From: Closterium sp. NIES-65
Taxonomy: Eukaryota; Streptophyta; Zygnematophyceae; Desmidiales; Closteriaceae
Direction: 5' to 3'
Assembly (NCBI GenBank): GCA_948144175.1
Contig: CANXME010000216.1
Location: forward strand, 51,001 to 115,000
Length of the DNA: 64,000 bases
Positions within the stretch are counted from its first letter, which is position 1. The number at the start of each line of letters is the position of its first letter. Below are positions 1 to 64,000 of the stretch, piece after piece. The position numbers and the translations under genes are program-made. Under the pieces are notes generated by a model that was not told where the DNA came from, searched no databases, and saw only the letters and a program-made list of their open reading frames with translations.

Positions 1-3000
1 GTGGACGTGGACGTGGACGTGGACGTAGACGTGGACGTGGACGTAGACATGGACGTGGACATGGATGTGGACGTGGACGTGGACGTGGACGTGGACGTAG
101 AAATGGACGTGGACGTACAAATGGACGTGCACGTGCACGTGGACCTGGACGTGCACGTGGACGTGGTTGTGGACGTGGACGTGGACGTGGACATGGACGT
201 GGACTTGGACGTGGACATGGACATGGACGTGGACGTGGACATGGACGTAGACGTGGACGTGGACGTGGACATAGACGTGGACGTGGACGTGGACGTGGAC
301 ATGGACGTGGACGTGGACGTGGACATGGACGTGAACATGGACGTGGACGTGGACATGGACGTGGACAAGGACATGGACGTGGACGTGGACATGGACGTGG
401 ACGTGGACATGGACGTGGACATGGACGTGGACATGGACGTGGACATGGACGTGGACGTGGACGTGGACGTAGACATGGACGTGGACGTGGACGTAGACGT
501 GGACGTAGAAATGGACGTGGACGTGGACGTGGACGTGGACGTGGACGTGGACATGGACGTGGACGTGGACGTGGACATGGACGTGGACGTGGACGTGGAC
601 GTGGACATGGACGTGGACATGGACGTGGACGTGGATTTGGACGTGGACGTGGACGTAGAAATGAACGTGGACGTGGACGTGGACGTGCACATGGAAATGG
701 ATGTAGACATGGACGTGGACGTGGACGTGAACGTGGACGTGGACGTGGACGTGGACATGGACGTGGACGTGGACATGAACGTGGACGTGGTCGTGGTCGT
801 GGACGTGGACGTGGACGTGGGCGTGGTCATGGACGTGGACGTGGACATGGACGTGGTCGTGGTCGTGGACATGGACGTGGACGTGGAGGACGTGGACGTG
901 GAGGACGTGGACGTGGACGTGGAGGACGTGGACGAGGACGTGGAGGACGTGGACGTGGACGTGGACGTGGACGTGGAAGTGGACGTGGAGGTGGACGTGG
1001 ACCTGGACGTGGACCTGGACGTGGACCTGGACGTGGACCTGGACGAGGACGTAGACATGGACGTGGACATGGACGTGGACGTGGACGTGGACATGGACGT
1101 GGACGTGGACGTGGACGTGCACATGGACATGGACGTGGACGTGGACATGGACATGGATGTGGACATGGACATGGACGTGGACGTAGACGTGGACGTGGAC
1201 GTGGACGTAGAATTGGACGTGGACGTGGACGTGGACGTGGACGTAGACGTGGACGTGGACGTAGACATGGACGTGGACATGGATGTGGACGTGGACGTGG
1301 ACGTGGACGTGGACGTGGACGTGGACGTAGAAATGGACGTGGACGTACAAATGGACGTGCACGTGCACGTGGACCTGGACGTGCACGTGGACGTGGTTGT
1401 GGACGTGGACGTGGACGTGAACGTGGTCGTGGTCGTGGACGTGGTCATGGTCTTGGACGTGGACGTGGACGTGGACGTGGTCATGGATGTGGACGTGGAC
1501 ATGGACGTGGTCGTGGTCGTGGACATGGACGTGGACGTGGTCGTGGACGTGGACGTGGACGACGTGGACGTGGAGGACGTGGACGAGGACGTGGAGGACG
1601 TGGACGAGGACATGGAGGACGTGGACGAGGACGTGGAGGACGTGGACGTGGACGTGGACGTGGTCGTGGACGTGGACGTGGACGTTGACGTGGACGTGGA
1701 CGTGGACGTGGACCTGGACGTGGACCTGGACGTGGACGTGGACGTGGAAGTGGACGTGGACGTGGACCTGGACGTGGACCTGGACGTGGACATGGACGAG
1801 GACATGGACGTGGACATGGACGTGGACGTGGACGTGGACGTGGACGTGGACGTAGACATGGACGTGGACGTGGACGTGGACGTACACATGGACATGGACG
1901 TGGACGTGGACGTGGACATGGACGTGGACATGGACATAGACGTGGACGTGGACGTGGACGTGGACGTAGAAATGGACGTGGACGTGGACGTGGACGTGGA
2001 CGTGGACATGGACGTGGACGTGGACGTGGACGTGGACGTGGACGTGGACGTCGAAGTGGACATGGACGTGGACCTGGACCTGGACGTGGACCTGGATGTA
2101 GACATGGACGTGGACGTGGACGTGGACGTGGACGTGGACATGGACGTGGACGTGGAAGTGGACGTGGACGTGGACGTAGAAATGGACGTGGACGTGGACG
2201 TGGAAGTGGACGTGGACGTGGACATAGAAATGGACGTGGACGTGGACGTGGACGTGGACGTGGACGTGGAAATGGACGTGGACGTGGACGTCGAAATGGA
2301 CGTGGACGTAGAAATGGACGTGGACGTCGACGTGGACATGGACGTGGACGTGGACATGGACATGGACGTGGACATGGACGTGGACGTGGACGTGGACATG
2401 GACGTGGACGTGGACGTGGACGTGGACGTAGACATGGACGTGGACGTGGACGTGGACGTGGACGTGGACATGGACGTGGACGTGGACGTGGACGTCGAAG
2501 TGGACGTGGACGTGGACCTGGACCTGGACGTGGACCTGGACGTAGACATGGACGTGGACGTGGACGTGGACGTGGACGTGGACATGGACGTGGACGTGGA
2601 AGTGGACGTGGACGTGGACGTAGAAATGGACGTGGACGTGGACGTGGACGTGGACGTAGACATGGACGTGGACGTGGAAGTGGACGTGGACGTGGACGTA
2701 GAAATGGACGTGGACGTGGACGTGGACGTGGACGTGGATGTGGACGTGGACGTGGACGTTGAAATGGACGTGGACGTGGAAATGGACGTGGACGTGGACG
2801 TGGACGTCGAAATGGACGTGGACGTGGACGTGGACGTGGACGTGGACGTGGACGTGGACGTAGAAATGGATGTGGACGTAGAAATGGACGTGGACAGAGA
2901 CGTGGAAGTGGACGTGGACGTGGACGTAGAAATGGACGTGGACGTGGACGTGGACGTGGACGTGGACGTGGAAATGGACGTGGACGTGGACGTGGACGTC

Positions 3001-5782
3001 GAAATGGACGTGGACGTGGACGTGGACGTGGACGTGGACGTGGACGTAGAACTGGACGTGGACGTAGAAATGGACGTGGACGTAGAAATGGACGTGGACG
3101 TGGACGTGGTTGTGGACGTGGACGTGGACGTGGAGGTGGAAGTGGACGTGGACGTGGACGTGGAAGTGGACGTGGACGTGGACGTGGAGGTAGACGTGGA
3201 CGTGGACGTGGAGGTGGACGTAAACATGGACGTGGACGTGGACGTGGACCTGGACGTGGACGTGGACGTGGACGTGGACGTCGAAATGGACGTGGACGTG
3301 GACGTGGACGTGGACGTGGACGTGGACGTGGACGTGGACATAGAAATGGACGTGGACGTGGACATGGACGTGGACGTGGACGTGGACATAAACATGGACG
3401 TGGACATGGACATGGACATGGACGTGGACGTGGACATGGACGTGGACGTGGACGTGGACGTAGAAATGGACGTGGACGTGGACGTGGACGTGGACGTGGA
3501 CGTGGACATGGACGTGGACGTGGACGTGGACGTGGACGTGGACGTCGAAGTGGACGTGGACGTGGACCTGGACCTGGACGTGGACCTGGACGTAGGCATG
3601 GACGTGGACGTGGACGTGGACGTGGACGTGGACGTGGACGTGGACGTGGACATGGACGTGGACGTGGAAGTGGACGTGGACGTGGACGTAGAAATGGACG
3701 TGGACGTGGACGTGGACGTGGACGTGGACGTGGAAGTGGACGTGGACGTGGACGTAGAAATGGACGTAGACGTGGACGTAGACGTGGACGTGGACGTGGA
3801 CGTGGACGTGGACGTGGAAATGGACGTGGACGTGGACGTGGACGTAGAAATGGACGTGGACGTGGACGTGGACGTGGACGTGGACGTGGACGTGGACGTC
3901 GAAGTGGACGTGGACGTGGACCTGGACCTGGACGTGGACCTGGACGTAGACATGGACGTGGACGTGGACGTGGACATGGACGTGGACGTGGACGTGGACA
4001 TGGACGTGGACGTGGACATGGACGTGGACGTAGAAATGGACGTGGACATGGACGTGGACGTGGACGTGGACATGGACCTGGACGTGGACGTGGACGTGGA
4101 CGTGGACGTCGAAATGGACGTGGACGTGGACGTGGACGTGGACGTGGACGTAGAAATGGACGTGGACGTGGACGTGGACATGGACGTGGACGTGGACGTG
4201 GACATGGACATGGACGTGGACATGGACATGGACGTGGACGTGGACGTGGACATGGACGTGGACGTGGACGTGGACGTGGACGTAGAAATGGACGTGGACG
4301 TGGACGTGGACGTGGACGTGGACATGGACGTGGACGTGGAAGTGGACGTGGACGTGGACATGGACGTGGACGTGGACGTGGACCTGGACGTGGACCTGGA
4401 CGTAGACATGGACATGGACGTGGACGCGGACGCGGACGTGGCCGCGGACGCGGACGTGGACGTGGACGCGGACGTGGACGCGGACGTGGACGCGGACGTG
4501 GACGCGGACGCGGACGTGGACGTGGACGCGGACGTGGACGTGGACGTGGACGGGGACGTGGACGGGGACGTGGACGTGGACGTGGACGTGGACGTGGACG
4601 TTGACGTGGACGTGGACGTGGACGTAGACGTGGACGTGGACGTGGACGTGGACGTGGAAATGGACGTGGACGTGGACGTGGAAATGGACGTGGACGTGGA
4701 CGTGGACGTGGACGTGGACGTGGACGTGGAGGTGGACGTGGACGTGGAGGTGGACGTGGACGGGGACGTGGAGGACGACGTGGACGTGGAGGACGTGGAC
4801 GTGGACGTGGACGTGGAGGACGTGGACGTGGACGTGGACGTGGACATGGACGTGGACGTGGACGTGGACGTGGACGTGGACGAGGACGAGGACGTGGACG
4901 TGGACGTGAACGTGGACGTGGACGTGGTCGTGAACGTGGACGTGGTCGTGGACGTGGTCGTGGACGTGGACGTGGACGTGGACCTGGACCTGGACGTTGA
5001 CGTGGACGAGGACGTGGACGTGGACGTGGAGGACATGGACGTGGACGTGGACGTGGACGTGGACGTAGAAGTGGACGTGGACGTGGACGTGGACGTGGAC
5101 GTGGACCTGGACGTGGACGTGGACGTGGACGTGGACGAGGACGAGGACGTGGACGTGGACGTGGACGTGGACGTGGACGTGGACGTGAACGTGGACGTGG
5201 ACGTGGTCGTGGACGTGGTCGTGGATGTGGACGTGGACGTGGACCTGGACCTGGACGTTGACGTGGACGAGGACGTGGACAAGGACGTGGAGGACATGGA
5301 CGTGGACGTGGACGTGGACGTGGACGTAGAAATGGACGTGGACGTGGACGTGGACGTGGACGTGGACCTGGACCTGGACCTGGACGTTGACGTGCACGTG
5401 GACGTGGACATGGACATGGACCTGGACGTGGACGTGCACGTGGAGGTGGACGTGGAGGTGGACGTGGACGTGGACCTGGACATGGACGTGCACGTGGAGG
5501 TGGACGTGGACGTGGACCTGGACATGGACCTGGACGTGGACGTGGAGGACATGGACGTGGACGTGGACGTGGACGTTGACGTGGACGTGGACGTGGACGT
5601 GGACGTGGACGTGGACCTGGACGTGGACGTGGACGTGGACGTGGACGTGGACGACGACGAGGACGTGGACGTGGACGTGGACGTGGACGTGGACGTGGAC
5701 ATGGACGTGGACGTGGAAGTGGACGTGGACGTGGACGTAGAAATGGACGTGGACGTGGACGTGGACGTGGACATGGACGTGG
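1..5782 (+). repeat. Hexamer satellite array A, (GTGGAC)n on the + strand
   Basis: The stretch is an essentially uninterrupted tandem array of GTGGAC, roughly 960 units by length, running off the left edge of the window. Common variant units are ATGGAC, GTAGAC, GTAGAA, GTGGAA, GTGGTC, GTGCAC and GACGAG-type units. Variants recur in blocks, which shows higher-order duplication. A composite with GTAGAA-ATGGAC, GTACAA and GTGCAC units at about 100-175 recurs at about 1327-1400. A composite starting GTCGAAGTGGAC followed by two CTGGAC units recurs near 2050, 2492, 3542 and 3897. A block with GTGAAC and GTGGTC units at about 4905-5000 recurs near 5185-5260. All frames are open because the unit has no stop codon in any frame, so the 1950-residue Val-Asp frame is not evidence of a gene. 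Confidence 0.97.
4424..4568 (+). repeat. Local cluster of GCGGAC and GGGGAC variant hexamers in array A
   Basis: Within array A this stretch alternates GTGGAC with many GCGGAC units (about a dozen), one GTGGCC unit and, at its right end, two GGGGAC units. These variants are almost absent elsewhere in the GTGGAC arrays of the window. They add a second CpG per unit. The clustering suggests local amplification of one mutated unit rather than scattered point mutation. Confidence 0.85.
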
Positions 5783-6420
5783 TCCAGGAGCTTGCCTGGT
5801 CCAGGAGCGTGCCTGGTCCAGGAGCGTGCCTGGTCCAGGTGCTTGCCTGGTCCACGAGCTAGCCTCGTCCTAGAGCTTGTCTGGTCCAGGAGCGTCCTTG
5901 GTCGAGGAGCTTGCCTGGTCCAGGAGCTTGCCTGGTCCAAGAGCTTGCCTTGTCCTGGAGCTTCACTGGTCCAAGACCTTGCCAGGTGCAAGAGCTTGTC
6001 AGGTCCAGGTGCATGCCGGGTCCACAAGCTTGCCTGGTCCAGGAGCTTGCCTCATCAAGGAGCTTGCCTTGTCCAGGAGCTGGCCTGGTCCTGGAGCGTG
6101 CCTGGTCTTGGAATGTGTCTTGTCTAGGAGCGTGCCTAGTCCATGAGCTTGCCTCGTCTAGGAGCGTGCCTGGTCAAGGAGCTTGCCTGGTCCAAGAGCT
6201 TGCCTGGTCCAAGAGCTTGCCTAGTCCACAAGCTTGCCTAGTCCAAGAGCTTGCCTCGTCAAGGAGCTTGCTTGGCCTCGTCTAGGAGCGTGCGTGGTCA
6301 TGGAATGTGTCTGGTCCAGGAGAGTGCCTAGTCCATAAGCTTGCCTCGTCTAGGAGCTTGCCTGGTCCAGGAGCTTGCCTGGTCCTGGAGCTTGCCTGAT
6401 CCTGGAGCTTGCCTGGTCCA
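5783..6420 (+). repeat. 17-bp minisatellite, block 1 (forward orientation)
   Basis: Tandem units of 17 bp with consensus CCAGGAGCTTGCCTGGT start directly at the end of hexamer array A. The join shares GTGGTCC, which is both a hexamer variant and the start of a 17-mer. Frequent variants are CCAAGAGCTTG, CTAGGAGCTTG, CCACGAGCTTG and CCAGGAGCGTG. Across the whole minisatellite region (5783-21335) there are about 915 units by length. Three units make 51 bp, which translates as an open 17-residue repeat in several frames. No gene is inferred. Confidence 0.96.
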
Positions 6421-8562
6421 TTGCAAGCTAACGGACCAAGAAAGCTCCAGGACAGGGCAGGCTCCTGGACCAGGCACGCTCCTGGAACAGGCAAGCTCCT
6501 GGACCAGGCAAAGCTCCTGGACCAGGCAAGCTCTTGGACCAGGCAAGCTCCTAGACTAAGCAAGCTCCTGGACCAGGCACGCTCCTGGACCCGGCAAGCT
6601 CCTAGACCGGGCAAGCTCTTGGACCAGGCAAGCTCCTGGTCCAGGCAAACTCGTGGACCAGGCACGCTCCTGGACCAGGCAAGATCTTGGACGAGGCAAG
6701 CTCCTGGACCAGGCAAGCTCCTAGACCAGGCAAGCTCATGGACCACGAACGCTCCTGGACCTGGCAAGCTCCTAGACCAGGCAAGATCTTGGACGAGGCA
6801 AGCTCCTGGACCAGGCAAGCTCCTGGATCAGGCAAGCTCCTCGACCAGGCACGCTCCTGGACCAGGCAAGCTCCTAGACCAGGCAAGGTCATGGACCAGG
6901 CAAGCTCCTAGACCAGGCAAGCTCGTGGACCAGCCATGCTCGTGGACCAGCCAAGCTCCTGGACAGGGCATGCTCCTAAACCACAAAAGCTCTTGGACCA
7001 GGCAAGCTCTTGGACCAGGCAAGCTCCTGGACCAGCCAAGCTCCCGGACCATGCAAGCTCGTGGACCAGGCACGGTCCTGGACCAGGCAAGATCCTAGAC
7101 CAGGCAAGCTCCTGGACCAGGCAAGCTCCTGGACCAGGCAAGCTCGTGGACCGGGCAAGCTCGTGGACCAGGCAAGCTCCTTGACCAGGCAAGCTCCTAG
7201 ACCAGGCACGCTCCTGGACCAGGCAAGCTCCTAGACCAGGCAAGCTCCTGGACCACGCAAGCTCTTAGACAAGGCACGCTCTTGGACCAGGCAAGCTCTT
7301 GGACCAGGTAGGCTTCATGACCGGGCAAGCTGCTGGACAAGGCAAGCTCCTGGACCAGGCAAGATCCTGGTCCAGCCAAGCTCATGGACCACGCAAGCTC
7401 CTGGACCAGGAACGCTCGTTGACCAGGCACGCTCTTGGACCAGACAAGCTCCTAGACCAGGCAAGGTCCTGGACCAGGCAAACTCCTGGACCAGGCAAGC
7501 TCATGGACCGGGCACGCTCCTGGACCAGGCAAGCTCCTGGACCAGGCAAGCTCCTAAACCACGCAAGCTCTTAGACCGGGCAGGCTCGTGGAACACGCAA
7601 GCTCGTGGACCAGGCAGGCTCTTGGACCAGGCAAGCTGCTAGACCAGGCAAGCTCCTTGACCAGGCAAGCTCGTGGACCAGGCAAGCTCTTGGACCAGGC
7701 AGGCTTCTGGACCAAGCAAGCTCCTGGACCACGCAAGCTCCTGGACCAGGCAAGCTCGTGGACCAGGCAGGCTCTTGGACCAGGCAAGATCCTGGACCAA
7801 GCAAGCTCCTGGACCAGGCACACTCGTGGACCAGGCACACTCCTGGACCAGGCAAGCTCTTGGACCAGGCACGCTCTTGGACCAGGCAAGCTCTTGGACC
7901 ACGCAAGCTCCTGGACCAGGCACGCTCGTGGACCAGGCACGCTCCTAGCCTAGGCACGCTCCTGGAACAGGCAACCTCATGGACCAAGCACGCTCCTTGA
8001 CCAGGCAAGCTCCTGGACGAGGCAAGCTCCTAGACCATGCAAGCTCTTGGACCAGGCACGCTCCTGGACCAGGCAAGCTCTTGGACCAGGCACGCTTCTG
8101 GACCAAGCAAGCTCCTGGACCAAGCAAGCTCCTGGACGACGCAAGCTCTTGGACCAGGCAGGCATCTAGACCAAGCAAGCTCCTGGACCTGGCAAGCTCC
8201 TGGACCACGCAAGCTTCTGGACAAGGCAAGCTCCCGGACCAGGCAATATCTTGGACCAGGCAAACTCCCAGTCCAAGGAAGCTCCTGGACCAAGCAAGCT
8301 CGTGGACCGGGCACGCTCCTGGACCAGGCAAGTTCCTAGACGAGGCAAGCTCCTGGACCAGGCAAGCTCCTGGACATTGCAAGCTCCTGGACTTGGCAAG
8401 CTCCTGTACCACGCACGCTCCTGGACCAGGCAAGCTCCTAGACTAGGCAAGCTCCTCGACCACGCAAGCTCTTGGACCAGACAAGCTCCTGGACCGCGCA
8501 AGCTCCTGGACCAGTCAAGCTAACGGACCATGAAAGCTCCTGGACAAGGCAAGCTCGTGGAG
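6421..8562 (-). repeat. 17-bp minisatellite, block 2 (reverse orientation)
   Basis: At 6421 the array flips to the reverse complement, GGCAAGCTCCTGGACCA. The flip is marked by the variant AAGCTAACGGACCA at about 6424. A second copy of that motif lies near the far boundary, at about 8518, about 45 bp before forward orientation resumes. This block matches the reverse block at 10374-12312 unit by unit, with shared unusual units such as GGTAGGCTTCATGACCGG and GGCAATATCTTGGACC. Confidence 0.93.
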
Positions 8563-10373
8563 GTTGGTCTAGGAGTTTGCCTGGTCCAGCAGCTTGCCTG
8601 GTCTAGGAGCTTGCCTGGTCTAGGAGCTTGCTTGGTCCAGGAGCGTGCTTGTTCCACGAGCGTGCCTGGTCCAGGAGCTTGCCTTGTCCAGGAGCTTTCT
8701 TGGTCCGTTAGCTTGCCTGGTCCAGGAGCTTGCCTGGTCTAGGAGCTTTCCTGGTCCAAGAGCTTGCCTGGTCCAAGAGCTTGCCTGGTCCAGCAGCTTG
8801 CCTGGTCCAGGAGCGTGCGTGATCCACGAGCTTGCCTGGTCCATGAGCTTGCCTGGTCCAGGAGCGTGCCTGGTCCAAGAGCTTGCCTGGTCCAGGAGCT
8901 TTCATGGTCCAAGAGCTTGCCTGGTCCAAGAGCTTGCTTGGTCCAGAAGCCTGCCTGGTCCAAGAGCTTGCCTGGTCCAGGAGCGTGTCTGGGTTAAGAG
9001 CTTGCCTGGTCCAGGAGCTTGCGTGGTCGAGGAGCTTGCCTGGTCCAGGAGCTTGCCTGGTCCAGGAGCTTGCCTTGTCCAAGAGCTTGTCTGGTCCAAG
9101 AGCTTGTGTGGTCTAGGAGCTTGCCTGGTCCAGGAGCTTGCCTAGTCTAGGAGCTTGCCTGGTCTAGGAGCTTGCCTAGTCCAAGAGCGTGCCTGGTCCG
9201 GAAGCTTGCCTGGTCCAGGAGCTTGCCTGGTCTAGGAGCTTGCATGGTCCAGGAGCTTGCCTGGTCCAGGAGCTTGCGTGGTCGAGGAGCTTGCCTGATC
9301 CAGGAGCTTGCCTGGTCCAGGAGCTTGCCTGGTCCAGGAGCTTGCCTTGTCAAGGATATTGCGTGGTCTAGGAGCTTGTCAAGTCCAAGAGCTTGCTTGG
9401 TCCAGAAGCTTGCCTGGTCCAGAAGATTGCCTGGTCCACGAGCTTGCGTGGTCAAGGAGCTTGCCTAGTCCACGAGATTGCCTGGTCTAGGAGCTTGCCT
9501 GGTCCACAAGCCTGCTTGGTCCAAGAGCTTGCCTGGTCCACGAGCGTGTACGGTCCAGGAGCGTGCCTGATCCAGGAGCTAGCCTGGTCCATGAGCTTGC
9601 CTGGTCCAAGAGCTTGCTTGGTCCAGAAGCCTGCCTGGTCCAAGAGCTTGCCTGGTCCAAGAGCGTGCCTGGTCCAAGAGCTTGCGTGGTCCAGGAGCTT
9701 GCGTGGTCAAGGAGCTTGCCTAGTCCAGGAGCTTGCCTGGTCTAGGACCCTGCCTGGTCCAAGAGCTTGCCTGGTCCAAGAACTTTCGTGGTCCAGGAGC
9801 TTGCCTGGTCCAGGACCTTGCCTGGTCTAGGAGCTTGCCTGGTCCAGGAGCTTGCCTAGTCCAGGAGCATGCCTCGTCCACGAGTTTGCCTGGTCCACAA
9901 GCTTGCCTGGTCTAGGAGCTTGCCTGGTCTAGGAGCTTGCATGGTCCAGGAGCGTGCCTGGTCCAGGAGCTTGCCTGGTCCAAGAGCTATCCTGGGCCAG
10001 GAGCTTGCCTTGTCTAGGAGCTTGCCTGGTCCAAGAGCTTGCCTGGTCCAAGAGCTTGCCTGGTCCAAGAGCTTGCCTTGTCCAAGAGCTTGCCTGGTCC
10101 AAGAGCTTGCCTGGTCCAAGAGCTTGCCTGGTCCAAGAGCTTGCCTGGTCCAAGAGCTTGCCTAGTCCACAAGCTTGCCTGGTCCAAGAGCTTGCCTCGT
10201 CAAGGAGCTTGCCTGGTTCAGGAGCTGGCCTCGTCTAGGAGCGTGCCTGGTCCTGGAATGTGTCTGGTCCAGGAGAGTGCCTAGTCCATAAGCTTGCCTT
10301 GTCTAGGAGCTTGCCTGGTCCAGGAGCTTGCCTGGTTCTAGAGCTTGCCTGATCCTGGAGCTTGCCTGGTCCA
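8563..10373 (+). repeat. 17-bp minisatellite, block 3 (forward orientation)
   Basis: Forward-orientation 17-mers lie between the two reverse blocks. The start carries GGTCTAGGAGTTTGCCTGG. The last ~130 bp (about 10240-10373) repeats the last ~130 bp of block 1 (about 6290-6420), including CTGGAATGTGTCTGG and the AGAGTGCCTAGTCCATAAGC unit. The flank was therefore duplicated together with the reverse block. Confidence 0.93.
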
Positions 10374-12312
10374 AGGCAAGCTAACGGACCAAGAAAGCTC
10401 CAGGACAGGGCAGGCTCATGGACCAGGCACGCTCCTGGTACAGGCAAGCTCCTGGACCAGGCAAAGCTCCTGGACCAGGCAAGCTCTTGGACCAGGCAAG
10501 CTCCTGGACTAGGCAAGCTCCTGGACCAGGCACGCTCCTGGACCCGGCAAGCTCCTAGACCGGGCAAGCTCTTGGACCAGGCAAGCTCCTGGACCAGGCA
10601 AGATCTTGGACGAGGCAAGCTCCTGGACCAGGCAAGCTCCTAGACCAGGCAAGCTCCTGGACCACGAACGCTCCTGGACATGGCAAGTTCCTAGACCAGG
10701 CAAGATCTTGGACGAGGCAAGCTCCTGGACCAGGCAAGCTCCTGGATCAGGCAAGCTCCTCGACCAGGCACGCTCCTGGACCAGGCAAGCTCCTAGACCA
10801 GGCAAGGTCCTAGACCAGGCAAGCTCCTAGACCAGGCAAGCTCGTGGACCAGCCATGCTCGTGGACCAGCCAAGCTCCTAGACAGGGCATGCTCCTAAAC
10901 CACGAAAGCTCTTGGACCAGGCAAGCTCTTGGACCAGGCAAGCTCCTGGACCAGCCAAGCTCCCGGACCATTCAAGCTCGTGGACCAGGCACGGTTCTGG
11001 ACCAGGCAAGACCCTAGACCAGGCAAGCTCCTGGACCAGGCAAGCTCGTGGACCGGGCAAGCTCGTGGACCAGGCAAGCTCCTTGACCAGGCAAGCTCCT
11101 AGACCAGGCACGCTCCTGGACCAGGCAAGCTCCTAGACCAGGCAAGCTCCTGGACCACGCAAGCTCTTGGACCAGGCACGCTCTTGGACCAGGCAAGCTC
11201 TTGGACCAGGTAGGCTTCATGACCGGGCAAGCTGTTGGACAAGGCAAGCTCCTGGACCAGGCAAGATCCTGGTCCAGCCAAGCTCATGGACCACGCAAGC
11301 TCCTGGACCAGGAACGCTTGTTGACCAGGCACGCTCTTGGACCAGGCTAGCTCCTAGACCAGGCAAGGTCCTGGACTAGGCAAACTCCTGGACCAGGCAA
11401 GCTCATGGACCGGGCACGCTCCTGGACCAGGCAAGCTCCTGGACCAGGCAAGCTCCTAAACCACGCAAGCTCTTAGACCGGGCAAGCTCGTGGAACACGC
11501 AAGCTCGTGGACCAGGCAGGCTCCTGGACCAGGCAAGCTCCTAAACCAGGCAAGCTCCTTGACCAGGCAAGCTCGTGGACCAGGCACGCTCTTGGACTAG
11601 GCAGGCTTCTGGACCAAGCAAGCTCCTGGACCACGCAAGCTCCTGGACCAGGCAAGCTCGTGGACCAGGCAGGCTCCTGGACCAGGCAAGCTCCTGGACC
11701 AAGCAAGCTCCTGGACCAGGCACACTCGTGGACCAGGCACACTCCTGGACCAGGCAAGCTCTTGGACCAGGCACGCTCTTGGACCAGGCAAGCTCTTGGA
11801 CCAGGCACGCTCCTGGACCAGGCAAGCTCTTGGACCAGGCACGCTTCTGGACCAAGCAAGCTCCTGGACCAGGCAAGCTCCTGGACGACGCAAGCTCTTG
11901 GACCAGGCAGGCATCTAGACCAAGCAAGCTCCCGGACCTGGCAAGCTTCTGGACCACGCAAGCTTCGAGACAAGGCAAGCTCCCGGACCAGGCAATATCT
12001 TGGACCAGGCAAATTCCCGGTCCAAGGAAGCTCCAGGACCAAGCAAGCTCGTGGACCGGGCACGCTCCTGAACCAGGCAAGTTCCTAGACGAGGCAAGCT
12101 CCTGGACCAGGCAAGCTCCTGGACCTTGCAAGCTCCTGGACTTGGCAAGCTCCTGTACCAGGCACGCTCCTGGACCAGGCAAGCTCCTAGACTAGGCAAG
12201 CTCCTCGACCACGCAAGCTCTTGGACCAGACAAGCTCCTGGACCGGGCAAGCTCCTGGACCAGTCAAGCTAACGGACCATGAAAGATCCTGGACAAGGCA
12301 AGCTCGTGGAGC
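10374..12312 (-). repeat. 17-bp minisatellite, block 4 (reverse; duplicate of block 2)
   Basis: This is the second reverse-oriented block, entered through AAGCTAACGGACCA at about 10378 and left shortly after another copy at about 12267. It aligns to block 2 in the same order of variant units. The offset is about 3.95 kb at the left end and 3.75 kb at the right end, so it carries roughly 200 bp of net deletion relative to block 2. The copies differ by scattered substitutions. Confidence 0.92.
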
Positions 12313-25317: not shown

Positions 25318-25326
25318 CACCCCCAT
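25318..25326 (-). other. Candidate polypurine tract of the Copia element
   Basis: Directly inside the 3' LTR, the sense strand reads ATGGGGGTG and abuts the LTR start TGTCAG. A G-run at this place is where plus-strand DNA synthesis of LTR elements is primed. It is short and includes two T residues. A second G-rich stretch lies at 25335-25339 (CCCCC on the sense strand, so not a purine tract). Confidence 0.6.
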
Positions 25327-31850: not shown

Positions 31851-31861
31851 TGGGCGGATCG

Positions 31862-47050: not shown

Positions 47051-47072
47051 ACGTCGACGTCGACGTCGACGT
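47051..47072. repeat. 22-bp perfect palindrome, ACGT(CGACGT)3
   Basis: The variant hexamer GTCGAC is its own reverse complement. Three in a row give a perfect 22-bp palindrome inside array C. Its mirror partner in array D is 58696-58723. Confidence 0.9.
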
Positions 47073-50522: not shown

Positions 50523-50568
50523 ACGTCGACGTCGACGTCGACGTCGAAGTCCACGTCGACGTCGACGT
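50523..50568. repeat. Paired GTCGAC palindromes (22 bp and 16 bp)
   Basis: ACGT(CGACGT)3 at 50523-50544 and ACGT(CGACGT)2 at 50553-50568 flank a short CGAAGTCC segment. They lie shortly after an AAGTCCACACGTCC landmark. The mirrored pair in array D is at 55222-55267. Confidence 0.9.
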
Positions 50569-51310: not shown

Positions 51311-54300
51311 GTCCACGTCCATGTCCACGTCCTCCTCCACGTCCATGTCCACGTCCACGTCCACGTCCACGTCCACGTCCACGTCCATGTCCACGTCCAC
51401 GTCCACGTCCACGTCCACGTCCACGTCCACGTCCACGTCCACGTCCACGTCCACGTCCATGTCCACGTCCTCCTCCACGTCCATGTCCACGTCCACGTCC
51501 ACGTCCACGTCCACGTCCACGTCCACGTCCATGTCCACGTCCACGTCCACGTCCACGTCCACGTCCATGTCCACGTCCACGTCCACGTCCACGTCCACGT
51601 CCTCGTCCACGTCCACGTCCATGTCCACGTCCACGTCCACGTCCACGTCCATGTCCACGTCCACGTCCACGTCCATTTCTACGTCCACGTCCACGTCCAC
51701 GTCCATGTCCACGTCCACGTCCACGTCCACGTCCATGTCCACGTCCACGTCCACGTCCACGTCCACGTCTACGTCCAAGTCCACACGTCCACGTCCACGT
51801 CCACGTCTACGTCCACGTCCACGTCCACGTCCACGTCCACGTCCACGTCGACGTCCACGTCCACGTCGACGTCGACGTCCACGTCCACGTCCACGTCCAC
51901 GTCCACGTCCACGTCTATGTCCACGTCCACGTCCACGTCCACGTCCACGTCCACGTCCACGTCTATGGCCACGTCCACGTCCACGTCCATGTCCACGTCC
52001 ACGTCCACGTCCATGTCCACGTCCATGTCCACGTCCATGTCCACGTCCACGTCCACGTCCACGTCCACGTCCATGTCCACGTCCACGTCCAGGTCCATTT
52101 CTATGTCTACGTCCACGTCCACGTCCATGTCCACGTCCACGTCCACGTCCACGTCCACGTCCACGTCCACGTCCACGTCCACGACCACGTCTACGTCCAC
52201 CTCCACGTCCACCTCCACGTCCACCTCCACGTCCACGTCCACGTCCACGTCCACGACCACGACCACGTCCACGTCCACGTCCACGTCCACGTGTCCACGT
52301 CCACGTCCACGTCCACGTCCACGTCCACGTCCATGTCCACGTCCACGTCCAAGTCCACGTCCACGTCCACGTCCACGTCCACGTCCACGTCCACGTCCAC
52401 GTCCACGTCCACGTCCACGTCCACGACCACGTCTACGTCCACCTCCACGTCCACCTCCACGTCCACCTCCACGTCCACGTCCACGTCCACGTCCACGTCC
52501 ACGACCACGACCACGTCCACGTCCACGTCCACGTCTACGTGTCCACGTCCACGTCCACGTCCACGTCCATGTCCACGTCCACGTCCACGTCCACGTCCAC
52601 GTCCATGTCCACGTCCACGTCCACGTCCACGTCCATGTCCACGTCCACGTCCACGTCCACGTCCATGTCCACGTCCACGTCCACGTCCACGTCCTCGTCC
52701 ACGTCCACGTCCTCGTCCACGTCCACGTCCACGTCCACGTCCTCCTCCACGTCCACGTCCATGTCCACGTCCACGTCCACGTGTACGTCCACGTCCACGT
52801 CCACGTCCACGTGTACGTCCACGTCCACGTCCACGTCCACGTCCACGTCCATGTCCACGTCCACGTCCACGTCCACGTCCAAGTCCACGTGTACGTCCAC
52901 GACCACGTCCACGTCCAAGTCCACGACCACATCTATGTCCACGTCCACATCCACCTCCACGTCCACGTCCACGTCCACGTCCACGTCCACGACCACGTCC
53001 ACGTTCACGTCCATGTCCACGTCCACGTCCACGTCCACGTCCACGACCACGTCCACGTCCACGTCCACGTCCACCTCCACGTCCACGTCCACGTCCACGT
53101 CCACGTCCACGTCCACGTCCACGTTCATGTCCACTCCACGTCCACGTCCACGTCCACGTCCAAGTCCACGTCCACGTCCACGTCCACGACCACGACCACG
53201 TCCACGTCGACGTCCAGGTCTACGTCCACGTCCACGTCCACGTCCACGTCCACGTCCACGACCACGTCTACGTCCACCTCCACGTCCACCTCCACGTCCA
53301 CCTCCACGTCCACGTCCACTTCCACGTCCACGTCCACGTCCACGACCACGTCCACGTCCACGTCCACGTCCACGTCCACGTCCACGTCCACGACCACGTC
53401 CACGACTACGTCCACGTTCACGTCCACGTCCACGTCCACGTCCACGTCCAAGTCCACGTCCAAGTCCACGTCCACGTCCACGTCCACGTCCACGTCCACG
53501 TCCACGTCCACGTCCACGACCACGTCCACGTCCACGTCCACGTCCACGTCCACGTCCACGTCCAGGTCCACGTCCAGGTCCACGTCCACGTCCACGTCCA
53601 CGTCCACGTCCACCTCCACACGTCCACGTCCACGTCCACGTCCACGTCCACGTCCACCTCCACGTCCACGTTCACGTCCACGTCAACGTCCACGTCCACG
53701 TCCACGTCCACGTCCACGTCCACGTCCACGTCCACGACCATGTCCACGTCCACGTCCACGTCCAAGTCCACGTCAACGTCCACGTCCACGTCCACGTCCA
53801 CGACCATGTCCACGTCCACGACCACGTCCACGACCATGTCCAAGTCCACGTCCAAGTCCACGTCCACGTCCACGTCCACGTCCACGTCCACGTCGACGTC
53901 CACGTCCACGTCCACGTCCACGTCCAGGTCCAGGTCCACGTCCACGTCCACGTCCATGTCCACGTCTACGTCCACGTCCACGTCCACGTCCACGTCCACA
54001 ACCACGTCCACGTCCACGACCACGTCCACGACCATGTCCAAGTCCATGACCACATCCACGTCCACGTCCACGTCCACGTCCACGTCCACGTCCAAGTCGA
54101 CGTCCACGTCCATGTCCATGTCCACGTCCACGTCCAGGTCCATGTCCACGTCCACGTCCACGACCACGTCCACGTCCACGTCCACGTCCACGTCCATGTC
54201 CACGTCCACGTCCACGTCCACGTCCACGTCCACGTTTATGTCCAAGTCCACGTCCACCTCCACGTCCACGTCCACGTCCACGACCACGTCCACGTCCACG

Positions 54301-54466
54301 ACCACGTCCACGACCATGTCCAAGTCCACGTCCACGTCCACGTCCAAGTCCACGTCCACGTCCACGTCCACGTCCACGACCACGTCAACGTCCACGTCCA
54401 CGTCCAATCCACGACCACGTCCACGTCCACGTCCACGTCCACGTCCAGGTCAACGTCCACGTTCAC
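51311..54466 (-). repeat. Spacer between the inverted-repeat arms
   Basis: About 3.1 kb of GTCCAC array separating the two arms. It is itself built from array C modules: an AAGTCCACACGTCC landmark near 51778, GACCACGTCTACGTCC modules near 52185 and 52430, CCACTCCACG near 53133 and CCAATCCACG near 54410. It therefore resembles a further partial higher-order copy of about 34-36 kb. Confidence 0.75.
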
Positions 54467-55221
54467 GGACGACGTCGACGTGGACGTGGACGTGGACATG
54501 GACGTGGACATGGACGTGGACATGGACGTGGACGTACACGTGGACGTGGACGTGGACATGGACGTGGACGTGGACGTGGACGTGGACGTAGACGTGGACG
54601 TGGACGTGGACGTAGACATGGACGTGGACATGGACGTGGACTTGGACGTGGACGTGGACGTGGACGTGGACGTGGACATGGACGTGGACGTGGACGTGGA
54701 CGTGGACATGGACGTGGACGTGGACGTCAACGTGGACGTGGACTTGGACGTGGACATGGACGTGGACGTGGACGTGGACGTGGACGTGGACGTGGACATG
54801 GACGTGGACATGGACGTGGACATGGACGTGGACGTGGACGTGGACGTGGACGTGGACATGGACGTGGACGTGGACGTGGACGTGGACATGGACGTGGACG
54901 TGGACGTGGACGTGGACGTGGACGTGGACGTGGACGTGGACATGGACGTGGACGTGGACGTGGACGTGGACGTGGACGTGGACATGGACGTGGACGTGGA
55001 CGTGGACAGGGACGTGGACGTGGACGTAGACGTGGACGTGGACATGGACGTGGACGTAGACATGGACATGGACGTGGACGTGGACGTGGACGTGGACGTC
55101 GACGTGGACGTGGACGTGGACGTGGACGTGGACAGGGACGTGGACGTGGACGTAGACGTGGACGTGGACATGGACGTGGACGTAGACATGGACATGGACG
55201 TGGACGTGGACGTGGACGTGG

Positions 55222-55267
55222 ACGTCGACGTCGACGTGGACTTCGACGTCGACGTCGACGTCGACGT
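55222..55267. repeat. Paired GTCGAC palindromes in array D (16 bp and 22 bp)
   Basis: ACGT(CGACGT)2 at 55222-55237 and ACGT(CGACGT)3 at 55246-55267, in the mirrored order of 50523-50568. The mirrored order independently supports the inverted duplication. Confidence 0.9.
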
Positions 55268-58200
55268 GGACGTGGACGTGGACGTGGACGTAGACGTGGA
55301 CGTGGACGTGGACGTGTGGACTTGGACGTGGACGTGGACGTGGACGTCGACGTGGACGTGGACGTGGACGTGGACGTGGACATAGACGTGGACGTGGACA
55401 TGGACGTGGACGTGGACGTGGACGTGGACGTGGACGTGGACATGGACGTGGACGTGGACGAGGACGTGGACGTGGACGTGGACGTGGACGTGGACATAGA
55501 CGTGGACGTGGACGTGGACGTGGACGTGGACGTGGACGTCGACGTGGACGTGGACGTGGACGTCGACGTGGACGTGGACGTGGACGTGGACGTGGACGTA
55601 GACGTGGACGTGGACGTGGACGTGTGGACTTGGACGTAGACGTGGACGTGGACGTGGACGTCGACGTGGACGTGGACGTGGACGTGGACGTGGACGTAGA
55701 CGTGGACGTGGACGTGGACGTGTGGACTTGGACGTGGACGTGGACGTGGACGTGGACGTGGACATGGACGTGGACGTGGACGTGGACGTGGACGTGGACG
55801 TGGACGTGGACGTGGACATGGACGTGGACTTGGACGTGGACGTGGACGTGGACGTGGACGTGGACATGGACGTGGACGTGGACGTGGACATGGACGTTGG
55901 ACGTGGACATGGACGTGGACGTGGACGTGGACGTGGACGTGGACATGGACGTGGACGTGGACGTGGACGTGGACGTGGACGTGGACGAGGACATGGATGT
56001 GGACGTGGACGTAGAAATGGACGTGGACGTAGAAATGGACGTGGACATGGACATGGACGTGGACGTGGACGTGGACGTGGACATGGACATGGACGTGGAC
56101 GTGGACGTGGACGTGGACGTGGACATGGACGTAGACGTGGACCTGGACATGGACGTAGACGTGAACGTGGACGTGGACGTGGACAGGGACGTGGACATGG
56201 ACGTGGACGTGGACGTAGACGTGGACGTAGAAATGGACGTGGACGTAGACGTGGACATGGACATGGACGTGGACGTAGACGTGGACATGGACATGGACGT
56301 AGACGTGGACGTGGACGTGGACGTGGACGTGGACATGGACGTGGACATGGACATGGACGTGGACGTGGACGTGGACGTGGACATGGACGTGGACGTGGAC
56401 GTGGACGTGGACGTGGACGTAGACGTGGACGTGGACGTGGACGTGGACGTAGACATGGACGTGGACATGGACGTGGACTTGGACGTGGACGTGGACGTGG
56501 ACGTGGAGGTGGACGTAGAAATGGACATAGACGTGGACGTGGACATAGACGTGGACGTGGACGTGGACGTGGACGTGGACATGGACGTGGACGTGGACGA
56601 GGACGTGGACGTGGACGTGGACGTGGACGTGGACGTGGACGTGGACGTGGACGTGGACGTGGACATGGACGTGGACGTGGACGTGGACATGGACGTGGAC
56701 GTGGACATGGACGTGGACATGGACGTGGACATGGACGTGGACGTGGACGTGGACGTGGACATGGACGTGGACATGGACATGGACGTGGACATGGACATGG
56801 ACGTGGACGTGGACGTGGACGTGGACGTGGACGTGGACATGGACGTAGACGTGGACATGGACGTGGACGTGGACATGGACGTGGACGCAGACGTGGACGT
56901 GGACGTGGACGTAGACGTGGACGTGGACATGGACGTAGACGTAGACGTGGACGTGGACGTGGACGTGGACGTGGACATGGACGTGGACATGGACGTGGAC
57001 TTGGACGTGGACGTGGACGTGGACGTGGACGTGGACATGGACGTGGACGTGGACGTGGACGTGGACGTAGAAATGGACGTGGACGTGGACGTGGACATGG
57101 ACGTGGACGTGGACGTGGACGTGGACATGGACGTGGACGTGGACGAGGACGTGGACGTGGACGTGGACGTGGACGTGGACATGGACGTGGACGTGGACGT
57201 GGACGTGGACATGGACGTGGCCGTGGACGTGGACATGGACGTGGACGTGGACGTGGACGTGGACGTGGACGTGGACGTGGACGTAGACATGGACGTGGAG
57301 GAGGACGTGGACATGGACGTGGACGTGGACGTGGACGTGGACGTGGACGTGGACGTGGACATGGACGTGGAGGTGGACGTGGACGTGGACGTGGACGTGG
57401 ACGTGGACGAGGACATGGACGTGGACGTGGACGTAGAAATGGACGTGGACGTGGACGTGGACATGGACATGGACGTGGACGTGGACGTGGACGTGGACAT
57501 GGACATGGACGTGGACGTGGACGTGGACGTGGACGTGGACGTGGACGAGGACGTGGACGTGGACATGGACGTAGACGTGGACCTGGACATGGACGTAGAC
57601 ATGAACGTGGACGTGGACGTGGACAGGGACGTGGACATGGACGTGGACGTGGACGTGGACGTAGACGTGGACGTAGAAATGCACGTGGACGTAGACGTGG
57701 ACATGGACATGGACGTGGACGTAGACGTGGACATGGACATGGACGTAGACGTGGACGTGGACGTGGACGTGGACATGGACGTGGACATGGACGTGGACAT
57801 GGACGTGGACGTGGACGTGGACGTGGACGTGGACGTGGACGTGGACGTGGACGTAGACGTGGACGTGGACGTGGACGTGGACGTGGACATGGACGTGGAC
57901 TTGGACGTGGACTTGGACGTGGACGTGGACGTGGACGTGGACATGAACGTGGACATGGACGTGGACGTGGACGTGGACGTGGACGTGGACGTGGACGTGG
58001 ACGTAGACGTAGACATGGACGTGGACATGGACGTGGACGTGGACGTGGACGTGGACATGGACGTAGACGTGGACATGGACGTGGACTTGGACGTGGACGT
58101 GGACGTGGACGTGGACGTGGACGTGGACGTGGACATGAACGTGGACATGGACGTGGACGTGGACGTGGACGTGGACGTGGACGTGGACGTGGACGTGGAC

Positions 58201-58695
58201 ATGGACGTGGACGTGGACATGGACGTGGACGTGGACGTGGACGTGGACGTAGACGTGGACGTGGACGTGGACGTAGACGTGGACATGGACGTGGACGTGG
58301 ACGTAGAAATGGACGTGGACGTAGACGTGGACATGGACATGGACGTAGACGTGGACGTGGACATGGACGTGGACGTGGACATGGACGTGGACATGGACGT
58401 GGACGTGGACGTGGACGTGGACGTGGACGTGGACATGGACGTGGACGTGGACATGGACATGGACGTGGACGTGGACGTGGACATGGACGTGGACATGGAC
58501 GTGGACGTGGACGTGGACGTGGACGTAGACGTGGACGTAGAAATGGACGTGGACGTGGACGTGGACCTGGACCTGGACGTGGACGTGGACATGGACGTGG
58601 ACGTGGCATGGACGTGGACGTGGACGTGGACATGGACGTGGACGTGGACGTGGACGTGGACATAGACGTGGACGTGGACGTGGACGTGGACGTGG

Positions 58696-58723
58696 ACGTC
58701 GACGTCGACGTCGACGTCGACGT
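58696..58723. repeat. 28-bp perfect palindrome, ACGT(CGACGT)4
   Basis: Four consecutive self-complementary GTCGAC units. The partner at 47051-47072 has three, so the arms differ here by one unit. Confidence 0.9.
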
Positions 58724-61700
58724 GGACGTGGACGTCGACGTGGACGTGGACGTGGACGTGGACGTGGACGTGGACGTGGACGTAGACGTGGACGTGGACG
58801 TGGACGTGTTGACTTGGACGTGGACGTGGACGTGGACGTGGACATGGACGTGGACGTGGACGTGGACGTAGAAATGGACGTGGACGTGGACGTGGACGTG
58901 GACGTGGACGTGGACATGGACGTAGACGTGGACGTGGACGTGGACGTGGACGTGGACGTGGACGTGGACGTGGACTTGGACGTGGACGTGGACGTGGACA
59001 TGGACGACGTGGACGTGGACGTGGACGTGGACATGGACGTGGACATGGACGTGGACATGGACGTGGACGTGGACGTGGACGTGGACATGGACGTGGACGT
59101 GGACGTGGACGTGGACGTGGACGTGGACGTGGACGTGGACGTGGACATGAACGTGGACATGGACGTGGACGTGGACGTGGACGTGGACGTGGACATGGAC
59201 GTGGACGTGGACGTGGACGTGGACGTGGACGTGGACGTAGACGTGGACGTGGACGTGGACATGGACGTGGACGTGGACATGGACGTGGACGTGGATCTGG
59301 ACGTGGACGTAGACGTGGACGTGGACGTGGACGTAGACGTGGACATGGACGTGGACGTGGACGTAGAAATGGACGTGGACGTAGACGTGGACATGGACAT
59401 GGACGTGGACGTGGACATGGACGTGGACGTGGACATGGACGTGGACATGGACGTGGACGTGGACGTGGACGTGGACGTGGACATGGACGTGGACGTGGAC
59501 ATGGAAATGGACGTGGACGTGGACGTGGACGTGGACGTGGACATGGACGTGGACATGGACGTGGACGTGGACGTGGACGTAGACGTGGATGTAGAAATGG
59601 ACGTGGACGTGGACGTGGACCTGGACCTGGACGTGGACGTGGACATGGACGTGGACGTGGACGTGGACGTGGACGTGGACGTGGACGTGGACGTGGACGT
59701 GGACGTGGACGTGGACGTGGACGTGGACATAGACGTGGACGTGGACGTGGACGTGGACGTGGACGTGGACGTGGACGTGGACGTGGACGTAGACGTGGAC
59801 GTGGACGTGGACGTGTGGACTTGGACGTGGACGTGGACGTGGACGTGGACATGGACGTGGACGTGGACGTAGAAATGGACGTGGACGTGGACGTGGACAT
59901 GGACGTGGACGTGGACGTGGACGTGGACGTGGACGTAGACGTGGACGTGGACGTGTGGACTTGGACGTGGACGTGGACGTGGTCGTGGACGTGGACGTGG
60001 ACGTGGACGTGGTCGTGGACATGGACGTGGACCTGGACGTGGACGTGGACATGGACGTGGACCTGGATGTGGACGTGGACGTGGACGTGGACGTGAACGT
60101 GGACGTGGACCTGGACGTGGACGTGGACGTGGACGTGGACGTGGTCGTGGATTGGACGTGGACGTGGACGTTGACGTGGTCGTGGACGTGGACGTGGACG
60201 TGGACGTGGACTTGGACGTGGACGTGGACTTGGACTTGGACATGGTCGTGGACGTGGTCGTGGACGTGGACGTGGTCGTGGACGTGGACGTGGACGTGGA
60301 GGTGGACGTGGACTTGGACATAAACGTGGACGTGGACGTGGACGTGGACGTGGACATGGACGTGGACGTGGACGTGGACGTGGACGTGGACGTGGACGTG
60401 GTCGTGGACGTGGACGTGGACATAGACCTGGACGTGGACGTGGACATGGACATGGACGTGGACGTCGACTTGGACGTGGACGTGGACGTGGACGTGGACG
60501 TGGACGTGGATGTGGTCATGGACTTGGACATGGTCGTGGACGTGGTCGTGGACGTGGACGTGGTCGTGGACGTGGACGTGGACGTGGACGTGGACGTGGA
60601 CATGGACGTGGACGTGGACGTGGACCTGGACCTGGACGTGGACGTGGACGTGGACGTGGACGTCGACGTGGACGTGGACGTGGACGTGGACGTGGACGTG
60701 GACTTGGACGTGGACTTGGACATGGTCGTGGACGTGGTCGTGGACGTGGACATGGTCGTGGACGTGGACGTGGACGTGGACGTTGACGTGGACTTGGACG
60801 TGGACGTGGACGTGGACATGGTCGTGGACGTGGACGTGGACGTGGACGTGGACGTGGACGTGGACGTTGACGTGGACGTGAACGTGGACGTGGAGGTGGA
60901 CGTGGACGTGGACGTGGACGTGGACGTGTGGAGGTGGACGTGGACGTGGACGTGGACGTGGACGTGGACCTGGACCTGGACGTGGACCTGGACGTGGACG
61001 TGGACGTGGACGTGGACGTGGACGTGGACGTGGACGTGGACGTGGTCGTGGACGTGGACGTGGACGTGGACGTGGACGTGGACGTGGACTTGGACGTGGA
61101 CTTGGACGTGGACGTGGACGTGGACGTGGACGTGAACATGGACGTGGTCATGGACGTGGTCGTGGACGTGGACGTGGACGTGGACGTGGACGTGGACGTG
61201 GTCGTGGACGTGGACGTGGACGTGGAAGTGGACGTGGACGTGGACGTGGAGGTGGACGTGGAGGTGGACGTGGAGGTGGACGTAGACGTGGTCGTGGACG
61301 TGGACGTGGACGTGAACGTGGACGTGGACGTAGACCTGGACGTGGACGTGGACGTGGTCGTGGTCGTGGACGTGGACGTGGACGTGGACTTGGACGTGGA
61401 CGTGGACGTGGACGTGGAGTGGACATGAACGTGGACGTGGACGTGGACGTGGACGTGGACGTGGACGTGGACGTGGAGGTGGACGTGGACGTGGACGTGG
61501 TCGTGGACGTGGACGTGGACGTGGACGTGGACGTGGAGGTGGATGTGGACGTGGACATAGATGTGGTCGTGGACTTGGACGTGGACGTGGTCGTGGACGT
61601 ACACGTGGACTTGGACGTGGACGTGGACGTGGACGTGGACATGGACGTGGACGTGGACGTGGACGTGGACGTACACGTGGACGTGGACGTGGACGTGGAC

Positions 61701-64000
61701 GTACACGTGGACGTGGACGTGGACATGGACGTGGACGTGGAGGAGGACGTGGACGTGGACGTGGACGTGGACGAGGACGTTGACGTGGACCTGGACGTGG
61801 AGGACGTGGACATGGACGTGGACGTGGACATGGACGTGGACATGGACGTGGACGTGGACGTGGACGTGGACGTGGACATGGACGTGGACGTGGACGTGGA
61901 CGTGGACATGGACGTGGACGTGGACGTGGACGTGGTCGTGGACGTGGACGTGGTCGTGGTCGTGGACATGGACGTGGACTTGGACGTGGACGTGGACGTG
62001 GACGTGGACTTGGACGTGGACGTGGACATGGACGTGGACGTGGACGTGGACGTGGACGTGGACGTGGACACGTGGACGTGGACGTGGACGTGGACGTGGT
62101 CGTGGACGTGGACGTGGAGGTGGACGTGGACGTGGACGTGGACGTGGACGTGGACATGTGGACGTGGACGTGGACGTGGACGTGGTCGTGGTCGTGGACG
62201 TGGACGTGGACGTGGACGTGGACGTGGAGGTGGACGTGGAGGTGGACGTGGAGGTGGACGTAGACGTGGTCGTGGACGTGGACGTGGACGTGGACGTGGA
62301 CGTGGACCTGGACGTGGACGTGGACGTGGTCGTGGACGTGGACGTGGACGTGGACTTGGACGTGGACGTGGACGTGGACGTGGACGTGGAGTGGACATGA
62401 ACGTGGACGTGGTCATGGACGTGGACGTGAACGTGGACGTGGTCGTGGACGTGGACGTGTACGTGGACGTGGACGTGGACGTGGACGTGGACGTGGACGT
62501 GGACGTGGACGTGGACGTGGACGTGGTCGTGGTCGTGGACGTGGACGTGGACGTGGACGTGGTCGTGGACGTGGACGTGGTCGTGGTCGTGGACGTGGAC
62601 GTGGACGTGGACGTGGACGTGGACGTGGACGTGGACGTGGAGGTGGATGTGGACGTGGACATAGACGTGGTCGTGGACTTGGACGTGGACGTGGTCGTGG
62701 ACGTACACGTGGACTTGGACGTGGACGTGGACGTGGACGTGGACATGGACGTGGACGTGGACGTGGACGTGGACGTACACGTGGACGTGGACGTGGACGT
62801 GGACGTACACGTAGACGTGGACGTGGACATGGACGTGGACGTGGACGTGGACGTGGACGTGGTCGTGGACGTGGACGTGGACGTGGACGTGGACGTGGAC
62901 CTGGACGTGGACGTGGACGTGGACTTGGACGTAGACGTGGACATGGACGACGTGGACGTGGACGTGGACGTGGACATGGACGTGGACATGGACGTGGACA
63001 TGGACTGGACGTGGACGTGGACGTGGACGTGGACATGGACGTGGACGTGGACGTGGACGTGGACGTGGACGTGGACGTGGACATGAACGTGGACATGGAC
63101 GTGGACGTGGACGTGGACGTGGACATGGACGTGGACGTGGACGTGGACGTGGACGTGGACGTGGACGTAGACGTGGACGTGGACGTGGACATGGACGTGG
63201 ACGTGGACATGGACGTGGACGTGGATCTGGACGTGGACGTAGACGTGGACGTGGACGTGGACGTAGACGTGGACATGGACGTGGACGTGGACGTAGAAAT
63301 GGACGTGGACGTAGACGTGGACATGGACATGGACGTAGACGTGGACGTGGACATGGACGTGGACGTGGACATGGACGTGGACATGGACGTGGACGTGGAC
63401 GTGGACGTGGACGTGGACGTGGACATGGACGTGGACGTGGACATGGACATGGACGTGGACGTGGACGTGGACGTGGACGTGGACATGGACGTGGACATGG
63501 ACGTGGACGTGGACGTGGACGTAGACATGGACGTGGACGTGGACGTGGACCTGGACCTGGACGTGGACGTGGACATGGACGTGGACGTGGACGTGGACGT
63601 GGACGTGGACATGGACGTGGACGTGGACGTGGACGTGGACGTGGACATAGACGTGGACGTGGACGTGGACGTGGACGTGGACGTGGACGTGGACGTAGAC
63701 GTGGACGTGGACGTGGACGTGTGGACTTGGACGTGGACGTGGACGTGGACGTGGACATGGACGTGGACGTGGACGTGGACGTAGAAATGGTCGTGAACGT
63801 GGACGTGGACGTGGACATGGACGTGGACGTGGACGTGGACGTGGACGTGGACGTAGACGTGGACGTGGACGTGTGGACTTGGACGTGGACGTGGACGTGG
63901 TCGTGGACGTGGACGTGGACGTGGACGTGGTCGTGGACATGGACGTGGACCTGGACGTGGACGTGGACATGGACGTGGACCTGGATGTGGACGTGGACGT

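Follow-up and report, generated by a model that had tools for sequence, protein, structure and literature searches.

Human satellite III forms (GAATG)n arrays at Yq11.1 and Yq12, and the Yq12 array goes by the name DYZ1. According to PMC2588610, GAATG arrays extend over ~100 kb, have higher-order repeats of 3,360, 3,600, and 5,630 bp, and include some inversions. The GTGGAC repeat described here resembles them in having a very short unit that has diverged between copies, kilobase-scale structure, and arrays tens of kilobases long, with inversions in some (PMC2588610). It differs in unit and organism, and the chromosomal location is known for the human arrays. The two also differ in regularity: a single 3.6-kb period runs across the whole sequenced Yq12 array, according to PMC2588610, whereas GTGGAC duplications reach only two to three copies per level. 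The initial annotation had regarded a 6-bp unit in long arrays with kilobase structure as unusual, a view that does not hold given the precedent of the human GAATG arrays as presented there. Other short-unit satellite DNAs (5 to 10 bp), as covered in PMC8122249, share unit length and tandem organization with GTGGAC. The telomere repeat TTTAGGG is likewise short and G-rich on one strand, but its unit is another one, and the hexamer arrays examined here are internal, variable, and present in both orientations.

The literature searched, whose scope mostly excluded subscription literature, had no match to any of six three-unit strings, which together represent half of the six rotations on each strand. 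Searches on satellites, centromeres, and tandem repeats in Closterium and Zygnematophyceae, at the level of titles and the beginnings of abstracts, returned no study of desmid satellites. The letters GTGGAC do occur in a paper on a Physcomitrella satellite with an unrelated 43-bp unit. In the main text of PMC10407611, on the Closterium peracerosum-strigosum-littorale complex, the word satellite appears twice, both times in the introduction. The earlier suggestion that the unit had no previous description thus survives in that no three-unit string was found in the searched literature, with the qualification that a paper writing (GTGGAC)n once could escape such a search; as far as the searches go, the GTGGAC satellite is undescribed. 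As to the host, a group I intron near the 3′ end of the 18S gene is typical of Zygnematophyceae; here the 18S gene has a ~540-bp insert near its 3′ end with a subthreshold group I match (23.4 bits against a threshold of 50; E = 0.0012).

Hexamer arrays in the window

The window analyzed is a 64,000-nucleotide stretch of Closterium sp. NIES-65, positions 51,001 to 115,000 of contig CANXME010000216.1 (C216); coordinates are those of the window unless preceded by "C216:". Genome-wide searches covered the 874,075,685-bp assembly, whose 2,400 contigs are labeled C5, C17, C46, and so on. Four GTGGAC/GTCCAC arrays of 3.8 to 21.9 kb, with 85 to 89% matching (TRF), account for 41,059 of the 64,000 bases. 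The leftmost, H+2 (1 to 5782, plus strand by TRF and the orientation map), is the right part of a ~8.5-kb plus-strand array that starts near C216:48,200, and the segment just left of the window (C216:50,001-51,000) is likewise plus-strand hexamer. Two minus-strand arrays follow, H-2a (21339 to 25185) and the longest, H-2b (32568 to 54467; 21.9 kb), and then the plus-strand array H+3 (54471 to 64000), which is cut by the contig end. The G-rich strand alternates along the window, as a GC skew of about +0.46 or -0.48 shows.

Identity at a lag of 6 bases was 0.855 to 0.889 in the arrays, whereas 20 base shuffles of each array gave no more than 0.331, and perfect units made up 66.7% of the 12,557 parsed on C216 (50,001-51,000 left out). 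The initial annotation's hexamer of 41 kb, in arrays of up to 22 kb, is accordingly confirmed, and so is its claim of ordered variant units in the four C216 arrays tested. Recurring 101-mers within an array occupied 41.4% of positions in H-2b and 10.5% in H+3, and 35.6% and 28.3% in the arrays H+1 and H-1 of the left part of C216 (the shorter H+2 and H-2a were left out), compared with at most 2.04% in controls (unit shuffle or first-order Markov redraw, 10 each). In these four arrays the order of variant units exceeds chance.

The GTGGAC repeat is a genuine simple-sequence satellite DNA of known kind: its unit lies within 5 to 10 bp and is arranged head to tail, arrays of many kilobases occur at many loci, and there is higher-order or domain structure with inversions, as in the GAATG arrays, without a regular period. 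A microsatellite, in the sense of a short array at single loci, is ruled out by the lengths of the window arrays. The remaining 51 kb of C216, to the left, consists of plus-strand hexamer, a 17-bp satellite, minus-strand hexamer, and plus-strand hexamer, and all of C216 is satellite except for one copia element.

Nested duplications and the 17-bp satellite

Plain BLAST of the hexamer against itself was uninformative, with many offsets at ~89%, and exact 61-mers of rare words were used instead. Chains of these 61-mers revealed a 5.5-kb tandem duplication on the minus strand, with copy 1 at 32650 to 38149, copy 2 at 38153 to 43627 (98.1% identity between the two on alignment), and a partial copy 3 at 43047 to 46783. 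They also revealed a 9.5-kb inverted duplication, whose left arm (41730 to 51237, minus) and right arm (54559 to 64000, plus, running to the contig end) are 97.5% identical and are separated by a spacer of 3.3 kb at about 51238 to 54558. The hexamer changes from minus to plus at 54468 to 54470 (TRF and genome-wide probe search), and a 26-base probe for this junction matched only once in the genome at up to two mismatches.

The largest level is a tandem duplication of ~40 kb, in which blocks in the left half of C216 are colinear with the window once shifted by about 40 kb. It takes in the 17-bp satellite TGGTCCAGGAGCTTGCC, which occupies 5780 to 21335 as three abutting TRF arrays with internal strand switches (15,541 bp in total) and represents the second copy. 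Four blocks of this satellite are 99.4 to 99.9% identical to C216:16,761-31,850 (aligned bases, with 17 to 102 gap columns counted apart), while two hexamer blocks have 98.1% and 97.8% identity over aligned bases, the latter between the right part of H-2a (22212 to 25185) and C216:31,922-34,839. Gap columns numbered 176 to 848 in the four hexamer comparisons (the two 40-kb blocks, the 5.5-kb pair, and the inverted pair). Within this duplication, then, divergence seems to be quicker in the hexamer than in the 17-bp satellite, a difference that is inflated by ambiguous gap placement, which raises mismatch counts within the hexamer. In a BLAST self-comparison limited to 4,000 pieces, just two that were 700 bases or longer had at least 93% identity: a 10.3-kb block of the 40-kb offset, at 94.7% when gaps are counted, and the inverted pair, at 95.0%.

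A regular higher-order repeat was rejected, as lag spectra and 61-mer chains indicated only two to three copies per level. The multikilobase higher-order structure reported in the initial annotation is therefore real in being duplication at the kilobase scale, supported by 61-mer chains and alignments, but consists of nested low-copy duplications and inversions rather than a regular array; it is nested segmental duplication, with 5.5-kb tandem, 9.5-kb inverted, and ~40-kb tandem components.

The junction between the 17-bp satellite and the hexamer near 21,336 is rare, with four matches genome-wide. The idea that the 17-bp satellite gave rise to the hexamer was considered and dropped: GGTCCA-like junction words are common to both, and by a rough reckoning about one 5-of-6 match is expected by chance.

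A copia element within the hexamer

A complete Ty1/copia retrotransposon lies on the minus strand inside the hexamer at 25186 to 32567, as identified by its long terminal repeats (LTRs) and domain profiles. The two LTRs of 132 bp (25186 to 25317 and 32436 to 32567) are identical and enclose a single open frame of 2,071 codons (25516 to 31731), in which RVT_2, rve, gag_pre-integrs, and SH3_retrovirus were above the cut-off and a gag match was below it. CACGT is present on both sides of the element and is likely to be a 5-bp target duplication, although a 6-bp array gives such a match about one time in six by phase alone. TRF found small GC-rich repeats inside the element, and an Rfam search of the region gave no match at the gathering threshold. 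Joining the flanks gave a sequence whose best site, with 95.4% identity over 324 bases, falls in the first 40-kb copy and keeps colinearity with the duplicated block; runner-up sites in other hexamer had 92.8 to 93.2%. The first 40-kb copy appears from this comparison to be without the element, and because the joined flanks best match that copy and are colinear with it, insertion of the element probably postdates the 40-kb duplication.

Genome-wide abundance and a dispersed composite

Exact hexamer 24-mers numbered 153,702 genome-wide (101,027 and 52,675 by strand), of which C216 contributed 705 and 1,368; the reversed control gave 31 (13 and 18). Perfect 78-mers were very frequent and strand biased (29,352 versus 2,044). 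We estimate the genome-wide amount of hexamer at roughly 1 to 5 Mb, with a floor of 0.92 Mb (153,702 × 6). The upper figure of ~5 Mb, scaled from the 1,265 24-mers in the 41 kb of the window, is too high, because long perfect arrays exist elsewhere.

The 100 24-mer matches listed all fell on C5, where the hexamer lies inside a 184/371-bp satellite and beside a 31-bp satellite, with mirrored junctions. A probe for the junction between the 184-bp satellite and the hexamer had 104 matches genome-wide at up to one mismatch (reversed control, 0). The 100 of these that were listed fell on 50 contigs, 33 of which had two or more. Neighboring junctions on the same contig, among the same 100, were oriented +- in 28 pairs, -- in 16, ++ in 5, and -+ in only 1, a -+ count so low that 20,000 randomizations of strand never reproduced it. 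The loci on C5, C46, and C55 share a strand-switch breakpoint positioned 94 to 118 bp from where one junction probe begins. At up to one mismatch this breakpoint had 33 matches on 33 contigs (reversed control, 0), and 31 of the 33 were about 96 to 208 bp from the start of a same-strand junction probe among the junctions listed; those of C2398 and C2294 had no such junction among the matches listed.

A longer junction probe separated 83 matches on 48 contigs into 32 short-arm and 51 long-arm junctions. There were 17 contigs that combined a single short-arm junction with one or more long-arm junctions, and in all 17 the long-arm junctions, without exception, had the opposite strand and lay to the side of the hexamer; a further 30 contigs had one junction type only, and C2089 had two short-arm junctions. 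Distances from a short-arm junction to the nearest listed long-arm junction were 1.1 to 21 kb in 25 arrays, values that are upper bounds (C2125 may span two arrays). The layout of the composite is thus 184-bp satellite, a hexamer arm of ~0.1 to 0.2 kb, a strand switch, a long hexamer arm, and inverted 184-bp satellite. The simplest reading of these shared sequences is that the composite apparently had a single origin and was then dispersed. An exact-word search of all 115,000 bases of C216 found neither the composite breakpoint nor the 184-bp satellite junction. Since C216 lacks the composite and has a unique switch of its own, the window arrays have a partly separate history; and because that switch differs from the composite's, strand switches also arise anew.

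Origin, location, and alternative explanations

Our favored explanation, which we consider highly probable, is that the satellite spread by slippage at the scale of the unit and by segmental duplication at larger scales, and is probably noncoding, with a dispersed composite elsewhere that is apparently of single origin. Slippage would spread the 6-bp unit, and segmental duplication would produce the ~5.5-kb tandem copies and the ~40-kb tandem copies that take in the 17-bp satellite. Inverted copies of fold-back type would flip the strand. Unequal exchange and fold-back or template-switch repair may be the mutational steps, ectopic spread may have carried the repeat between heterochromatic blocks, and no function would be required.

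A coding role of the arrays, present or past, for a dipeptide-repeat protein is scarcely credible. The GTGGAC unit has no stop in any frame, C-rich-strand open frames reach 6,167 codons, and a few G-rich-strand frames are stop poor (2 stops in 5,500 codons in one frame of H+1 and 0 in 1,900 in one of H+2). The C-rich-strand frames, however, are nearly stop free because of the unit itself, Ser-Thr, Pro-Arg, and His-Val types follow one another in one frame after indels, and most G-rich-strand frames have many stops (51, 28, and 98 per 7,283 codons in the frames of the longest array). An origin of the arrays or their flips in the assembler or in fold-back reads is very improbable, even though C216 has exactly 115,000 bases, ends inside an array, and carries a switch at 54,468 that is unique in the assembly. 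Four of the 27 contigs whose size was seen are multiples of 2,500 in length, so the C216 end is probably artificial, and misjoins can occur when long reads from such arrays are assembled. Yet the hexamer unit is present on many contigs, the 40-kb copies show 0.1 to 0.6% difference across aligned bases in their 17-bp part, with the copia element in just one of the two, and the inverted arms differ by 2.5% around a 3.3-kb spacer, unlike the palindromes expected of missed adapters.

Slippage and duplication are compatible with a subtelomeric location, in which the hexamer would lie in repeat-rich zones near telomeres and spread by exchange between ends; we treat this as a tentative possibility. 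C131 (135,491 bases) carries hexamer at 11.5 to 17.2 kb and tracts of TTTAGGG, the telomere repeat of this genome, that begin at 130.4 kb and reach 135.06 kb or beyond; at the start of C17 the 31-bp satellite adjoins ~60 bases of telomeric repeat; and on C5 the 31-bp satellite abuts the 184-bp satellite that flanks the hexamer. C131 is, however, the only contig with hexamer and a terminal telomere array among the matches listed (100 of 156 telomere tracts), which is too few to place the satellite. The hexamer was ruled out as a telomere repeat, since the repeat near the end of C131 is TTTAGGG and no examined hexamer array lies beyond a telomere array. A centromeric role, in which arrays at the flip of the flanking satellite would mark kinetochore sites, about one per chromosome, is decidedly unlikely. 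Nothing in this fragmented assembly assigned the hexamer to a centromere or knob, the satellite classes with which the initial annotation had compared it. Each of 33 contigs has the common breakpoint a single time, and the listed junctions nearly always face each other, as with one inverted center per satellite domain. Against this, desmids are described as holocentric in PMC3897674, the distances between short-arm and long-arm junctions vary as widely as noted above, C2089 has two short-arm junctions, and C216 has several strand switches but no such center. Moreover, most hexamer contigs of seen size are 100 to 420 kb (two exceed 1.4 Mb), so that a single occurrence on each contig need not imply the same for each chromosome. 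It is likewise doubtful that the hexamer and its inverted 184-bp flanks constitute a dispersed single-origin palindromic element, present about once per chromosome or arm, with a structural role in the kinetochore, pairing, or end organization; if they did, such an element would belong to an alga with relatives that are regarded as holocentric.

A single contig holds nested duplications, both tandem and inverted, on scales of 6 bp, 5.5 kb, 9.5 kb, and 40 kb, and the dispersed composite with its one common breakpoint would serve as a countable marker of satellite spread between chromosomes. The composite may also be a probe for centromere-like or subtelomeric domains in a desmid. The GTGGAC repeat adds a satellite for which the searches found no description, probably in a lineage close to land plants, and the dispersed inverted composite deserves a chromosome-scale look.

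The GTGGAC hexamer units of contig C216 carried strand-biased variants at the CpG of the unit. Counted on the G-rich (GTGGAC) strand over the arrays at window 1-5782, 21339-25185, and 32568-64000 and the rest of C216, G-to-A changes affected 14.6% of 12,557 units, versus 1.2% for C-to-T changes on the same strand. Symmetric deamination would not produce such an imbalance, but it might arise if founder variants had spread or if one strand were more exposed than the other. Genome-wide, perfect 13-unit hexamer words (78-mers) numbered 29,352 on one strand versus 2,044 on the other, and these sequence counts point to long, homogeneous hexamer arrays elsewhere in the genome, on contigs other than those examined.

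The 17-bp satellite (window 5780-21335), represented by 1,387 exact 51-mers genome-wide, contained four internal strand switches, which fell at matching places in both tandem copies of the ~40-kb duplication when compared at 200-base bin resolution. Exact multiples of 2,500 occurred among the sizes of 4 of the 27 contigs for which size was seen (C216, 115,000; C64, 142,500; C1941, 347,500; C106, 5,085,000). This suggests that a binned scaffolding step made the cuts at these contigs, including the right end of C216 (window 64000).

Two distinct satellites, one of 18 bp (GCATGCTTGTGTCCGGAC) and one of 31 bp, adjoined telomere repeats (locus L030 on C131; L015 and L049 on C17). Short TTTAGGG tracts occurred in other settings: by eye, copia-like sequence enclosed those at L016 (C29), L032 (C55), and L034 (C106), and the tract at L035 (C117) lay immediately upstream of a tRNA-Lys gene. 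These four contigs look as if breaks had been healed by telomere repeats.
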